Shown here: one piece after another, positions 1,820 through 63,193 of the stretch
Layout: each line of letters opens with the position of its first letter
Position numbering within the stretch: position 1 is the stretch's first letter
Source: Dyella sp. 2HG41-7
GTDB taxonomy: Bacteria; Pseudomonadota; Gammaproteobacteria; Xanthomonadales; Rhodanobacteraceae
DNA: 64,000 nucleotides
NCBI RefSeq assembly: GCF_021390675.1
Contig: NZ_JAJEJV010000004.1
Coordinates: forward strand, 2,790,001 to 2,854,000
Direction of reading: 5' to 3'
Translations under genes and position numbers: made by a program
Notes under the pieces: model-generated
What the model was told of the DNA's origin: nothing
The model's database searches: none
The model's input: only the letters and a program-made list of their open reading frames with translations

Positions 1820-2090
1820 TAGGGATGCTCTGACCCATTCTACGCAGGCGTCACCTGCTTGTCCGTTTGCAGGCCACAGGACTATCGGTGAAGGCAGACT
1901 GGCTGTCTGTCGAGACGATGGGCCGAAGGCATGCAAACGGACAAGCCGGCCCGGAGGGTGATGTCCAGAGGGCTCGCAGAGTGCGCCGCGTGGCTTGAAC
2001 AGACGGCCAGTCTGACCTGCGCCACGCAACACACTCTGCGAGCCCTCTGGACATCATGCCGCCTACGTAGAATGGGTCAGAGCATCCCTA
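1820..2090. repeat. Structured dispersed repeat, copy A
   Basis: A 271-bp element between the SpoIIAA-like gene and recJ. The outer arms (1820-1844 and 2066-2090) are a perfect 25-bp inverted repeat, TAGGGATGCTCTGACC... . Inside are two hairpins: P2, with arms 1857-1871 and 1932-1946 (GCTTGTCCGTTTGCA), and P3, with perfect 24-bp arms beginning GATGTCCAGAGGGCTC and ending at GGACATC near 2055. P3 contains a further GCGTGGC/GCCACGC stem and a CAGAC/GTCTG tip. Two other copies occur at 44901-45150 and 56263-56529. It has no plausible coding capacity. Confidence 0.9.
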
Positions 2091-44865: not shown

Positions 44866-44900
44866 GGCGAGGCAACCTTTTCGCGCCCGATCGGCACTTA

Positions 44901-45150
44901 GTAGTGCCCTGGTCAATTTTGCTTAGGTGTTACCGTTACTGTCCGTTCGCAGACCAGCTGACTGTTCGGCGAGCCATAGGGGCTAAGGGATGCGGACAGA
45001 CAGTAACGGCCCAACCAGCGATGCCCAGAAGGCTCGCAGACTGCGCCACGCGGTCCGGCACTGCACCCGGCCTCCCCTGTGCCGCGCGATTCAGCCTGCG
45101 AACCTTCTGGACATCCTGTCGCCTAAGCGACGTTAGCCATTGCATCCTTA
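44901..45150. repeat. Structured dispersed repeat, diverged copy C
   Basis: A 250-bp element sharing the layout of copies A and B but with many paired substitutions. The outer stem is imperfect (44904-44927 with 45122-45145; CTTAGG/CCTAAG closes it). P2 arms CCGTTACTGTC and GACAGTAACGG (44933-44943, 44999-45009) are perfectly complementary, although their sequence differs from P2 in copy A. P3 arms run GATGCCCAGAAGGCTCGCAG (from 45020) and CTGCGAACCTTCTGGACATC (to 45115). It lies between the porin-like and sigma-factor genes. Confidence 0.8.
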
Positions 45151-45189
45151 GCCGACCGATCATCCACAGCGCCATGTGTCCTTGAGCTT

Positions 45190-47947: not shown

Positions 47948-50900
47948 ATGTCGCGCAACGTTTGTACAAGACGTCACCGGCACGATCCACAGCGCGTACC
48001 ACGTTATGTATTTGCTACAGCGCCCGCGCTTTTGCTGTCGCTGCTCCACCCTAGCGCGCTTTACGCGACGTGCACCAATACGGCTCCCGCAACGGGCACG
48101 ACTGTGACATGCAGCGGCAGCGGCATCGCGCCGGTGATCGCGCAAGCGGGTAGCGCCAATGTCATCATCAACATCGTCAGCGGCGTCAATTTCGCTAACA
48201 CGCGCACCGTCAATCCGCTCAGCTTCAGCGTCGACCACGCCAGCCAGATCACCAACAACGGCATTCTTTCGCTGACGGGCGGCAGCGGCACCGGCACCAA
48301 TCGCGGCGCGGTGATGCTCGGCACGAGTGACAACAACACGCTCACCAATGGCAGCCAAGGCAGCATCTCCACCACTGGCGCTTACAACGACGGCATGGCC
48401 GCCAACGGAAATGGCAATACGCTCACCAATGACGGAACGATCACCACGGGAGGCCCCAACGCTTACGGCATGACCGCCGCGTGGGGCCAAACCAACGTGG
48501 GCCAGATCAACAACACGTTGATCAACAACGGATCGATCAGCACATCCGGTAGCAATGCGCGCGCGATGTCGATTCTTGGACAGAACGGCACGATCACCAA
48601 CACCGGTACGTTGCTGACCACTGGCGCAAGCAGCACGACCGCGTACATGCAAGGCAATAACGACAAGCTGATCAACAGCGGCACCATTCAAGCGCAAGGC
48701 ACAACCGCTGACGCCGTATTTTCCAATACGGCGGGTTCGAGTTTTACCGCGAATATTCAAAATCTGGCGGGCGGCAAGATCATTGCGCAATCCGGCGCAG
48801 CGGTACGCACGCTCAACGGCGCCAGCACCATCGTCAATGCCGGCTTGCTTCAAAGCAACAGCGGCGTGGCGGTGCAGATGGGGTTAGGCGCCAATACGCT
48901 GATTCTGCAAACCGGTTCGTCAATCATTGGTTCTGCCGATGGCGGCGGCGGCACGAGTCCAAGCACGGTCATTCTTCAAGGTACCGGCAGCGTCACCAAT
49001 GCTTTTACGCGATTTAAAACCTTGTTGGGGCAAGGCAGCGATTGGAGCTGGAGCGGTAGCGGCGCGTTCAATACCGCAACACTCCAAGGTATCTTCAATC
49101 TCACCGGTACGGTAAGCGGTGCGGGCGTGTCCACCGACACGCTGACCTTCAACGGCGCCACCGTCACGGGTATAGCGGGCTTCACCAACTGGCCGAAAGT
49201 GAATGTCACCAACAACAGCACCGTAACCATGGACGGCGTATTGACCGTTGGTAACGCGAGCACCGGCACAGGCAATGTAACGATCGATGCGACCAGCACG
49301 CTTTTAGCGGGAAACGGCGCAAATGGCGGCATCGCACCGTTCGCGAGCGGGCAACTTGCGAATGTCACCAACGCCGGCACCATCAATCTCACCAACGGTG
49401 GTTCGACCGCTGCCAACACATTCACCATCACCGGCAATTACACCGGCGATCCGGCCAGACTTTTGCTCAACACCGTTCTGGGCGCGGATAACTCGCCATC
49501 CGACAAATTGATCATCAGCGGCGGCACCGCCGGCGGCAGCACAACCATCCATGTCACCAATGCAAGTGGCGACGGTGGGCTGACCGTCGTGAACGGCATT
49601 CTGCTTGTTGAAGCGACCCATGGCGCAACGATTCCGATCACCGCGTTCGCGTTGAATGGTGGACAGGTCGAAGCAGGCGCATACACGTACTACTTGTTTG
49701 AAGGCGGTGTGACGCCTGGTACTTCTAATAACTGGTATTTGCGTTCGACCTTACCACCGGCACCGGCGCCCTTGGCAACTCCAGCTCCGACTCCAGCGCC
49801 GACTCCAGCTCCGACTCCAGCTCCGACTCCAGCTCCGACGCCAGCTCCAACGCCGGCACCGACGCCAACGCCAACGCCAACGCCAACGCCGACGCCGACG
49901 CCGACACCAACACCAACACCGACACCGACGCCAACGCCGACACCGACACCGACACCGACACCAACACCAACACCGACGCCAACACCGACGCCAACACCGA
50001 CACCGACACCGACACCGACGCCGACACCAACACCGACACCGACGCCGACGCCGACGCCGACGCGAACACCAACACCATCCTCCGAAGGCGCGCCTATTCC
50101 CGCATTGGGAACGCCGCCGCTCCCGGCTCCGCTGCCCGCGGGATCGCCACCCGATCGGCTATACCGTCCGGAAGTTGCGATGGATTCGGCCATTCCCGCC
50201 GTCGCCATGCAAATGGGCGTGACGCAACTGGGAACCTTCGATCAACGCCAGGGAGGTCAGCTGCTACTCGATGGCGACGGATGGATGCCCGCCGGATGGG
50301 CGCGCGTGCTTAGCACCCACAACAATCAACAGCAAAGTGGCGGCGCTACGCCTCGATTCGACGGCAATATTGAAGGCGCGCAAGTCGGGCACGATATTTT
50401 TGTGCACGAAAGCGAAAACGGGCAAGGCGATCACTTCGGCGCATTCGTGGGCTACACGCACGCCAATGGCTTGGTCGACGGCAGCGACGATGGTTTCAGC
50501 AACGTACGCGCTGGCGGCCTGCACATCAACGGCGACAGCGTCGGCGCGTATTGGACGCATGTTACCGAAGCGCGCGCCTATATCGACGTGGTGCTGATGG
50601 GCACTTGGTTCCACACGCATGTCGATTCGAGTCAGCATTTCGACGACGCCATGCACGGAAGCTCCTTCAGCGCATCGCTGGAAGGCGGCGTACCCATCGC
50701 GCTGACGTCGCACCTCGCGCTGGAACCGCAAGCGCAAGCGATCTTTCAACACATCACCATGGATGGTTTTCAAGATCCTGTATCGAGCGTCGCATTCTCA
50801 TCCATCAATGCCGCGACCGGTCGCCTAGGCGGCCGCTTGCTCGGGCGCTTCTCGAACGAGACGCAAACCTTGGAGCCGTATCTCAAGCTCAACCTCTGGC

Positions 50901-51124: not shown

Positions 51125-51389
51125 GAGTCAGTCACCAAGCGGCGTTCTTGTTTCCCTCCCCTGCTTGCAGGGGAGGGCTGGGGTGGGGTTGCATGCGCTT
51201 GCTGCCCTATTCAACTTCTCCGCAAGATTCGCTTCACCCCACCCAACCCTCCCTACTACACGTCGGGGAGGGAGCAAACCTCGCAAATCCTGATGTTTTG
51301 CCACCCGATGCTGACATTGGCGACACTAAGCTAGAAGTAAGTAAGCGAAGGCACTCTTGCGAGACCATTCCCACCACGAGCCTACCCTT
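51125..51389. repeat. Palindromic intergenic repeat (CCCTCCCCTGC type), copy 1
   Basis: Around 51154-51278, CCCTCCCCTGCTTGCAGGGGAGGG and the GGGGTGGGG after it can fold against CACCCCACCCAACCCTCCCTACTACACGTCGGGGAGGGAG downstream. The same two-part element recurs at 62984-63130. No gene is seen in this gap. Confidence 0.7.
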
Positions 51390-52432: not shown

Positions 52433-52580
52433 TGCTCCCTCTCCCCTGCAGGGAGAGGGCCGCCCTAGCGATAAAGTTTATTTCTCGTCGCCCCGGCGAA
52501 AGCCGGGGCCCAGTGTCTTCGCTTGTGTGTATCGAAAGCCGCTGGGTCCCGGCTTTCGCCGGGACGACGGTGAGGTGATT
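52433..52580. repeat. Palindromic intergenic repeat (GCCCCGGCGAAAGCCGGGG type)
   Basis: CCCTCTCCCCTGCAGGGAGAGGG (52439-52461) is followed by CGTCGCCCCGGCGAAAGCCGGGGCCCAGTG and, 40 bp on, GCTGGGTCCCGGCTTTCGCCGGGACGACG, which is its inverted partner. A solo half occurs at 55798-55829. Such elements are common between genes in Xanthomonadales. Confidence 0.75.
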
Positions 52581-55797: not shown

Positions 55798-55829
55798 CGT
55801 CGCCCCGGCGAACGCCGGGGCGACGAGCA
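55798..55829. repeat. Solo GCCCCGGCG palindrome
   Basis: CGTCGCCCCGGCG - AAC - GCCGGGGCGACG, one hairpin of the type seen at 52480-52576. It lies between converging genes and may act as a bidirectional terminator. Confidence 0.6.
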
Positions 55830-55874: not shown

Positions 55875-56186
55875 CTACGCGTCAGACCCACTGCTTTTCG
55901 GCTTCCGCCCCCGCTTCGGCTTCGCGTTCACCTGGGCGATCAGGCTTTGCAAATACGCAATGCCCTCTTCCTCAGGGAAAAACGCCACCACGTCGGCCAC
56001 CGTCAACTTATGCCGTTCGCGTAACGCCAGAAACTCCATTTTCGCCTTCTCCATAGCTGACATGGCAGCTTGTTTGGCCGTCTGCTTTTTGGTCGAACGC
56101 TGCTCGGTCGAGCGCTTTTCGATCTGTTGATCGAGGGCGGCAAGTTCTTCCTGGAAGCGGCGGAAAGCGTCTTTCTGAAGGCTCAT
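55875..56186 (-). CDS. Small basic, coiled-coil, H-NS-like protein
   Basis: 103 residues. The first 55 are strongly helical and charged (FRRFQEELAALDQQIEKRSTEQ), likely a dimerising coiled coil. The rest has LRERHKLTVADVVAFFPEEEG and a C-terminal KPKRGRKPKSSGSDA, whose RGRKP is AT-hook-like. H-NS-family proteins combine such a coiled coil with a C-terminal DNA-binding tail, but the usual TWTGRGKxP motif is lacking. It may be a divergent nucleoid protein. Confidence 0.55.
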   Translation of the reverse strand: MSLQKDAFRRFQEELAALDQQIEKRSTEQRSTKKQTAKQAAMSAMEKAKMEFLALRERHKLTVADVVAFFPEEEGIAYLQSLIAQVNAKPKRGRKPKSSGSDA

Positions 56187-56262
56187 GGCGTGGGGGGATG
56201 CGGCGGGACTGGTGATTATCTCATACGGCGAATGGCTTACCCATGCGCCAAGCTGACTGCTT

Positions 56263-56529
56263 GGGATGCTCTGATCAATTCCACGTAGGCGTCACCGGCT
56301 TGTCCGTTTGCAGGCCATAGGACCATCGGCGAAGGCAGACTGGCTGTCTGTCGAGACGATGGGCCGAAGGCATGCAAGCGGACAAGCCGGCCCGAAGGGT
56401 GATGTCCAGAAGGCGCGCAGGCTGCGCCGCGTGGCTTGAACAGACGGCCAGTCTGCCCTGCGCCACGCAACACACCCTGCGCGCCTTCTGGACATCATGC
56501 CGCCTACGTGGAATTGATCAGAGCATCCC
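56263..56529. repeat. Structured dispersed repeat, copy B
   Basis: A 267-bp element, about 85-90% identical to copy A by eye. Its outer arms (56263-56291 and 56501-56529) are a perfect 29-bp inverted repeat, GGGATGCTCTGATCAATTCC... . Where copy A has GACCCATTCTAC, copy B has GATCAATTCCAC, and both arms carry the matching change. P3 arms GATGTCCAGAAGGCGCGCAGG and their complement are perfect over 21 bp. Confidence 0.9.
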
Positions 56530-56775
56530 TTGGAATACCGGGCGAAAAAACGTTTTCATAGGAGCATAAGAAAGCGTGACGCAACTCCCGTTCTAGGCTC
56601 GCATCTTCACGTTTTAAAGCACCTCGCTGCGTATCATTCCCTACACGTAACCCTTCGCAGCCTGTCGACGCGGCCCGAATGGCACGGTCTAAGCATTGCA
56701 TGGTCTTGCATCATCGGAAGTCATACCGCCCAAGGACGGCAGGGTGCGGTAAGCCAATGCCCAGGGATGCAACAA
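56530..56775. other. Leader region of the MASE1 gene
   Basis: 246 bp between copy B of the repeat and the MASE1 start. The frame of the next gene is open across it, but the residues are unlike a membrane-sensor N-terminus, so I treat it as untranslated. No strong promoter was seen. Confidence 0.35.
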
Positions 56776-59758: not shown

Positions 59759-60339
59759 TCGCTCTATAAGCTTGCGTCGGCACATTGACGCCCAAATGCT
59801 TTTTGCTTCATTCGTTCGATGAAAGACTAACCTGCCATTCCACCGATATGGCGGCGCGCTGGTAGAAGGATTGGCCGTGAGTATTCCGGCCAATCCTGCT
59901 AGCCGAGATCTCAACACTTGCCTAATCGTCATTCCAGCGAAAGCTGGACATAGTGCGCAGCACGAAGAACGTCCGAAGGACGGCCCCGAAGGGGGAGCGA
60001 AGCGAATCATCAAGTGACTTCGGGCTGCAAAGACGCTGGATTCCAGCTTTCGCTGGAATGACGATTAAGAGCAACCCCAAAACCTTCCTATCTCGCGCTT
60101 TAGCGATAGCACCGGCGAATCTCTTCTCTCGGCGAGGCATCCAACGCGCCTACGCACACAATGAAATCGCCCACACACCAACCGGCGCGCGACGACATTC
60201 AAATCCAATTTCGTAATGGTACCAATGTGTGTGCGAAGCGATTCGCATGCCAAAGCAGTCTGTTCTTTGGTTCGATTTACCCGAAGCGCAAAGCAAGACA
60301 AATCCAGGAAGCAACAAACAAAACGACCAAGGAGTGTCC
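59759..60339. repeat. Intergenic region with a 144-bp inverted-repeat element
   Basis: TAATCGTCATTCCAGCGAAAGCTGGA (59923-59948) and its exact complement (60041-60066) bound a 144-bp element. The inner part (GTCCGAAGGACGGCCCCGAAGGGGGAGCGAAGCG) forms smaller hairpins. The layout is MITE-like, but no flanking direct repeat was clear. The remaining 270 bp before the tyrosinase gene hold no recognisable gene. Confidence 0.65.
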
Positions 60340-61527: not shown

Positions 61528-61715
61528 TTGAAGAAGCGAAAACTCGATCAGGGAGATCGGATGACGCGCTCATCTCCATCTCTCCACATTTTCTGCTCGT
61601 CCTCCCGGCGAGGTGCTTTTCAACAGCAATGCTTGTCAAGCCGGGACCCAGCGACTTTCGCAATCTTTACTACGCCAATGAATGCGCAGGCTGGGGTTAG
61701 CCCCAACCTGCGTGT
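61528..61715. other. Short intergenic region with remnants of the GGGACCCAGC repeat
   Basis: A degenerate half of the palindromic repeat family is visible at about 61603-61660 (CCTCCCGGCGAGG...GCCGGGACCCAGCGACTTTCG). Nothing else stands out. Confidence 0.4.
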
Positions 61716-62944: not shown

Positions 62945-63193
62945 ATAACACCAACTCTCAACAACACGAAGCACAGTCCCCTCCCCTGCTTGCAGGGGAG
63001 GGCTAGGGTGGGATGACGCGGGCAACGCTCGCGTCCTTCATCAAAGCAAGCCATGAATAAGGCATCTCCGATGCATCGTCGCAAGACCGCTTCACCCCAC
63101 CCCAACCCTCCCCTACTACACGTAGGGGAAGCAGCAAAACGCGCGCGCCGAGACTCAGTGCGAATCAGGCCGTCTCTTCGGGACACCGCACTT
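62945..63193. repeat. Palindromic intergenic repeat (CCCTCCCCTGC type), copy 2
   Basis: CCCTCCCCTGCTTGCAGGGGAGGGCTAGGGTGGG (62980-63013) and the inverted partner CACCCCACCCCAACCCTCCCCTACTACACGTAGGGG (63092-63128). The copy at 51154-51278 has the same two parts. It lies between the two YeeE/YedE halves, an odd position inside what is probably one operon. Confidence 0.75.

Follow-up and report, generated by a model that had tools for sequence, protein, structure and literature searches.

What kind of sequence is the intergenic repeat of about 270 bp that recurs in the window, that is, in the whole 64,000-nucleotide stretch of Dyella DNA analysed here? An earlier note had described an element at 1820-2090 with an outer stem and two inner hairpins, present in three copies in 64 kb, and had proposed a mobile element moving by a hairpin or single-strand route, a structured RNA or a chromosome-organisation site. 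Three copies are indeed present, namely copy A within that interval (exact ends 1823-2087), copy B (56264-56528) and the decayed copy C (44902-45147), each flanked by a 4-bp target duplication.

Anatomy of the copies in the window

The features are as follows (HP1 and HP2, hairpins 1 and 2):

1819-1822, no strand: left target duplication of copy A (CTAG)
1823-2087, plus strand: copy A, type-1 element, 265 bp
1823-1853, plus strand: left outer arm of copy A; nucleotides 1-16 are the counterpart of an IS5-type terminal repeat
1854-1949, plus strand: HP1 of copy A, with the tip GAAGGCAGACTGGCTGTCTGTCGAGA at about 1890-1915
1959-2056, plus strand: HP2 of copy A, with the conserved tip GGCTTGAACAGACGGCCAGTCTGACCTGCGCC at 1992-2023
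2057-2087, plus strand: right outer arm of copy A, complement of the left arm
2088-2091, no strand: right target duplication of copy A (CTAA, differing from CTAG at one position)
44902-45147, plus strand: copy C, decayed, 246 bp; perfect TTAG/TTAG at 44898-44901 and 45148-45151
56264-56528, plus strand: copy B, type-1 element, 265 bp; perfect CTTG/CTTG at 56260-56263 and 56529-56532
56295-56390, plus strand: HP1 of copy B
56400-56497, plus strand: HP2 of copy B

The element is thus built from an outer arm, HP1 (about 96 nt), a short linker, HP2 (about 98 nt) and a second outer arm, and the linker is able to form a small third stem. The fold of copy A reaches -196.6 kcal/mol, compared with -105.5 kcal/mol (sd 5.4) for shuffled sequences (z -16.9), and the described outer stem and inner hairpins are present in the sequence. 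The arms had been called perfectly complementary (over 25 bp in A and 29 bp in B); they are strongly so (94% across 34 nt in A, 97% across 32 nt in B), but not over their whole length. The observation that the arms differ between A and B with both sides changed is borne out by a covarying triplet, which reads CCC/GGG in A and TCA/TGA in B. Copies A and B consist of stems and loops without a conserved ORF, in agreement with the reported lack of coding capacity. Copy C is of full length but decayed; a direct-repeat search picked up its right third only (68-72% identity), while its HP2 was detected by a covariance model (E 3.7e-6). Copy B lies between an H-NS-like gene (start 56186, minus strand) and a sensor-kinase-like gene (plus strand), both named from reading their translations (window 55875-56530 and onwards).

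The window holds further repeats. Inverted repeats of the CGTCATTCC(C/A)GCGAAAGC type are found at 52484-52569, 55802-55827, 59923-60067 and 61638-61660, and in another Dyella a 1.2-kb IS of PF01609 type (L149, 1046-2242) is bounded by perfect ends made of the repeat CGTCATTCCCGCGAAAGCGG, which suggests a further family of mini-elements linked to an IS. A different intergenic repeat (CCCTCCCCTGCTTGCAGGGGAGGG ... CCCAACCCTCCC) occurs twice, at 51154-51284 and 62979-63144. At 49719-50113 a 12-bp repeat (ACCGACGCC-like) recurs in tandem over about 20 registers, probably inside a coding region. Elsewhere, in a Dyella with a small genome of 3.5 Mb (G003), the Y1 transposase gene is present in about 16 near-identical copies, and there are 25 PF13340 IS5-type matches.

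Distribution in the genome and in the order

In the home genome (G000, 4.26 Mb) at least 24 type-1 copies or fragments were found, about 19 of full length and several partial, which gives the tens of copies that the earlier note had named as support for a family. A second subtype, detected with the HP2 covariance model, contributes at least five copies (e.g. at 1273466, 785561, 3240228, 100879 and 1820515). The element measures about 265-295 bp and stays under about 300 bp in most copies. Two home copies (L011 and L012) have their HP1 interrupted by a REP-like hairpin (GGGGAGCGGCCATGGATGGCCGC...GAGGAGCGAG in L012), and the point of insertion differs between them.

A type-1 query matched in 27 of 61 genomes (the home genome and 60 relatives), all one family. 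The element family spans Rhodanobacteraceae and Xanthomonadaceae, with copies in Dyella, Rhodanobacter, Luteimonas, Pseudoxanthomonas and Xanthomonas. The HP2 model, with no more than 20 matches counted in any one genome, matched in 42 of 200 genomes of the order, the strong matches being confined to these two families and the weak ones in other families (E about 1e-5 to 1e-10) being taken as scored only. Some pattern matches beyond Lysobacterales lack the hairpin and were dismissed as chance. Matches labelled Eremiobacteraeota look real, and the label is probably a binning error because L201, which is among them, coincides in locus with a match in G008, a genome that was placed in Dyella. The whole element had no match in plasmids and phages, and viral contigs gave a single end match, amid phage-like genes and without a transposase.

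The positions are scattered and polymorphic across the chromosome. No recurrent gene was found next to the elements, the neighbours being ordinary host genes, and insertions lie close to start and stop codons as called by a simple ORF heuristic, a placement that may simply follow from the tolerance of TA-containing targets in a GC-rich genome. Since a search of the literature (mostly open-access, with ISfinder outside its scope) returned no published description, this is apparently an undescribed, order-wide, non-coding element family.

Mobility and target sites

The suggestion of a mobile element was confirmed by 4-bp duplications, empty sites and polymorphism. For many of the home copies, queries in which the two flanks were joined located the orthologous site in relatives without an insertion, and presence or absence is therefore polymorphic, as had been expected. 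At one site (L007) the home genome reads CTAG-element-CTAG, while five relatives have an empty CTAG and two have CTTAG. One complete genome (G019) contains about 20 near-identical copies by exact end matches, with CTAG on both sides in 14 of the 15 copies fetched; these copies are a recent burst. The target duplication is of the CTAG/YTAR type and is imperfect in many older copies. A 2-bp duplication of TA fits more of the home copies (8/18, versus 4/18 for 4 bp), but was dropped because the 4-bp repeats on the two sides are identical in copies B and C and in the Rhodanobacter IS described below.

Terminal repeats and the candidate mover

The ends point to insertion sequences of the IS5 family. 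The sequence TAGGGATGCTCTGATCAAT of the element matches at 19 of 19 positions on a Rhodanobacter denitrificans plasmid (NZ_CP088981.1), where the match bounds an annotated IS5 family transposase (NF033581 transpos_IS5_4, E 6e-105; PF01609/PF05598) within an IS of 1188 bp whose terminal repeats are GGATGCTCTGATCAAT / GGATGCTCTGATTTAT and which lies in a TTAG/TTAG duplication. In a Dyella (G011, L150), CTAA followed by GGATGCTCTGATC likewise adjoins a broken IS5-type transposase, and CTAG followed by GGATGCTCCGATC adjoins an IS5 family transposase on a Pseudomonas syringae plasmid. The ends of the second subtype (type 2, AGRGCSTGTY) match another IS5 subgroup, as seen with intact NF033580-type IS5 elements in G009 (TAGGGCGTGTTAACAC; 821 bp, CTAG flanks) and with PF13340 elements in G003 and G017 (TAGAGCMTGTCGTCAT, AGGGCSTGTTAACAC). 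The burst genome retains one decayed relative of the type-2 subgroup; a similar end (AGGGTGTGTCATCAATCA), which may belong to it, lies about 1.4 kb off.

Transposases of PF01609, PF13586 and PF13340 were not found in the home genome, nor were such IS5-type genes found in some genomes with well-preserved copies (e.g. G012 and G014). No autonomous element of 1-2 kb with the same ends was found in four Dyella genomes (G014, G012, G009 and G002). These negative results count against the IS5 reading given below. Showing none of these transposases now, the home genome appears to hold survivors of earlier activity. Neither Y1/RAYT nor IS630 was found as a mover in the home genome, and among 12 genomes an IS630 transposase (PF13358) occurs only in one that is free of the element (G007), contrary to what an IS630-type MITE would demand.

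For both types the terminal inverted repeats are common to autonomous ISs, and the elements are polymorphic in presence and exist in several to many copies, as MITEs do. From the IS5 ends together with the 4-bp target duplication, the elements are therefore read as IS5-type MITEs with an unusual double-hairpin core (probability about 0.85). We infer from sequence that an IS5-type transposase moves these copies: a DDE transposase, supplied by a separate element of the IS5 family, would recognise about 16 bp at the termini (type 1, GGATGCTCTGATCAAT; type 2, AGRGCSTGTY), excise the element and join it into a CTAG/YTAR-like tetranucleotide, thereby generating the 4-bp duplication.

The hairpin or single-strand route raised at the outset would have the element move as single-strand DNA through its folded hairpin, carried by a Y1/HUH transposase of the REPIN or IS200/IS605 type. 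Hairpins with compensatory changes are described for REPINs too (PMC3116915), and many of these genomes contain Y1/RAYT-like genes; however, these genes are absent from the element-bearing G000, G011 and G013 and present in the element-free G007. As element presence does not track the RAYT (Y1) gene, a REPIN/RAYT system was rejected, and given that insertions duplicate 4 bp of the target, that the empty site matches, and that the ends are those of DDE elements, movement by a Y1/HUH enzyme is highly improbable.

The hairpin core

The HP2 tip GGCTTGNNNNGACGGCCAGTC is common to types 1 and 2, whereas the ends, the stems and the HP1 tip differ. One alignment (A1) was selected with the HP2-tip motif, so that its invariant columns arise partly by construction; the type-1 set was not so chosen and shows mean identities of 88% for the HP1 tip, 87% for the HP2 tip and 79% for the outer arms. 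The lower stems of HP2 are conserved as much as the tips. Both tips bear the same AGACTGGCYGTCT motif on opposite strands, and three loci (L023, L078 and L095) combine other outer arms with the same core. One core under different ends is not as expected from a simple internal deletion of one IS. An ordinary IS origin, which the earlier note had named, along with non-significant covariation, as speaking against its reading, applies in part: the ends are those of ordinary IS5 elements, but the covariation is significant (see below) and the core is not explained as a simple IS relic. One speculative reading, less likely than not, takes the core rather than the ends as what is conserved. The core would then be a module of DNA hairpins that improves the transposition or survival of its carrier; it would have joined up with the ends of two or more IS5 subgroups in the order Lysobacterales, and would behave as an end-swapping parasite of transposons.

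Stem covariation and its cause

Across 71 stem pairs in 119 type-1 copies, 95.4% of the pairs are Watson-Crick, and 22 pairs occur with all four Watson-Crick types. Covariation was assessed in a first pass with RNAalifold, and shuffled and slid alignments served as controls. The HP2 alignment contains 185 double-changed cells as compared with 51 in shuffles (0/500), and across both subtypes both partners have changed in 29 of 34 HP2 pairs, far more than in the shuffled and slid controls, so that the significant covariation anticipated in the earlier note is present.

The mismatches and the age of the copies bear on its cause. In the 119 type-1 copies G.U (135) and A.C (110) mismatches are about equal, and a transcript that tolerates wobble is therefore not what maintains the pairing. 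The burst copies have 23 one-sided and no two-sided changes at paired positions. By contrast, three orthologous site pairs, each from two species and of which two may reflect re-insertion at the same site, show 24 two-sided versus 8 one-sided changes, where about 2.5 two-sided changes are expected with independent arms. In one ortholog pair (L014/L115) the two arms have changed in length together, by one base each, and in L017 the HP1 spacer is inverted, the sole such inversion among 83 copies with both tips recognised. Two-sided changes and spacer inversion are published marks of template switching between the arms of inverted repeats (PMC8604942, PMC8794818). Template switching is probably the correcting process, and is preferred over selection on RNA: during replication one arm would serve as template for its partner (quasi-palindrome template switching), and mainly for this reason old copies would stay complementary.

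A structured RNA (a regulatory RNA, an RNase III substrate or a processing site), in which selection on transcripts keeps the pairing and mobility is incidental, would account for the very strong covariation, the conserved tips and the positions near start and stop codons. It would also agree with the orientation of type-1 elements between same-direction genes, where the HP1-HP2 order runs against the genes in 30 versus 13 cases (p 0.014), yet the corresponding bias of type 2 (24 versus 16) is not significant. Selection on RNA should moreover spare G.U on one strand, which the near-equal mismatch counts do not show, and neither the equal conservation of the lower HP2 stems nor the loops fit it well. 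Although complementary, the loops of HP1 and HP2 show no mutual covariation, and kissing between them was discarded. No Rfam model matched at its gathering score; at a relaxed E-value only microRNA-precursor and similar hairpin models appeared, far under their gathering scores. The structured RNA put forward earlier is thus not supported as the cause of the covariation, and we regard it as improbable.

The main alternative to template switching is selection at the DNA level, with the cruciform or hairpin itself being kept, e.g. as the binding site of a structure-specific host or transposon protein. The symmetric mismatch classes fit pairing at the DNA level, and cruciform selection would also yield the G.U/A.C symmetry; the HP2 tip that persists under different ends and stems, and the motif carried by both tips on opposite strands, fit as well. 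However, the burst copies tolerate one-sided changes, the copies are polymorphic and decaying (as copy C), and the conservation of the HP2 tip in alignment A1 owes something to the choice of sequences by motif. Also counting against it, we know of no partner protein for the hairpins. Selection on the cruciform is therefore rather unlikely, although less so than selection on an RNA.

Comparison with known systems and implications

The nearest described element is MITEPsy1 of Pseudomonas syringae, an IS5-related non-coding element in several copies, which duplicates CTAG or YTAA and for which transposition was shown; it is 100 bp long, with an unrelated inner sequence and no double-hairpin core described (PMC3189936). 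IS5-family ISs share the terminal repeats (NF033581/IS5_4 for type 1, NF033580/IS5_3 for type 2) and the CTAG/TTAG target, whereas the Dyella element has no transposase gene; the double-hairpin core was not seen in the two intact IS5-family ISs inspected. The CIR repeats of Caulobacter and Brucella, compared by description only, are intergenic and have two long inverted-repeat arms with a linker, but no outer terminal stem and a length of about 100-200 bp (PMC2229807). RUP and Correia elements are non-coding and present in many copies, and RUP has ends in common with an IS; both are single stem-loop structures, and RUP differs further in its IS630 ends, TA target and length of 107 bp (PMC2229807). 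REPINs resemble the element as short palindromic mobile repeats with compensatory changes (PMC3116915). They are tied to RAYT Y1 enzymes and are much shorter. To our knowledge, they have no 4-bp duplication.

The new parts are the double-hairpin core, the length and the presence of one core under two end types. A family of this kind would pass the usual covariation filters as a structured RNA, and the count of G.U versus A.C mismatches, together with the contrast between young and old copies, offers a simple separator of DNA-level palindrome correction from RNA selection. Furthermore, a core found under different transposon ends lets one ask whether MITEs exchange movers.
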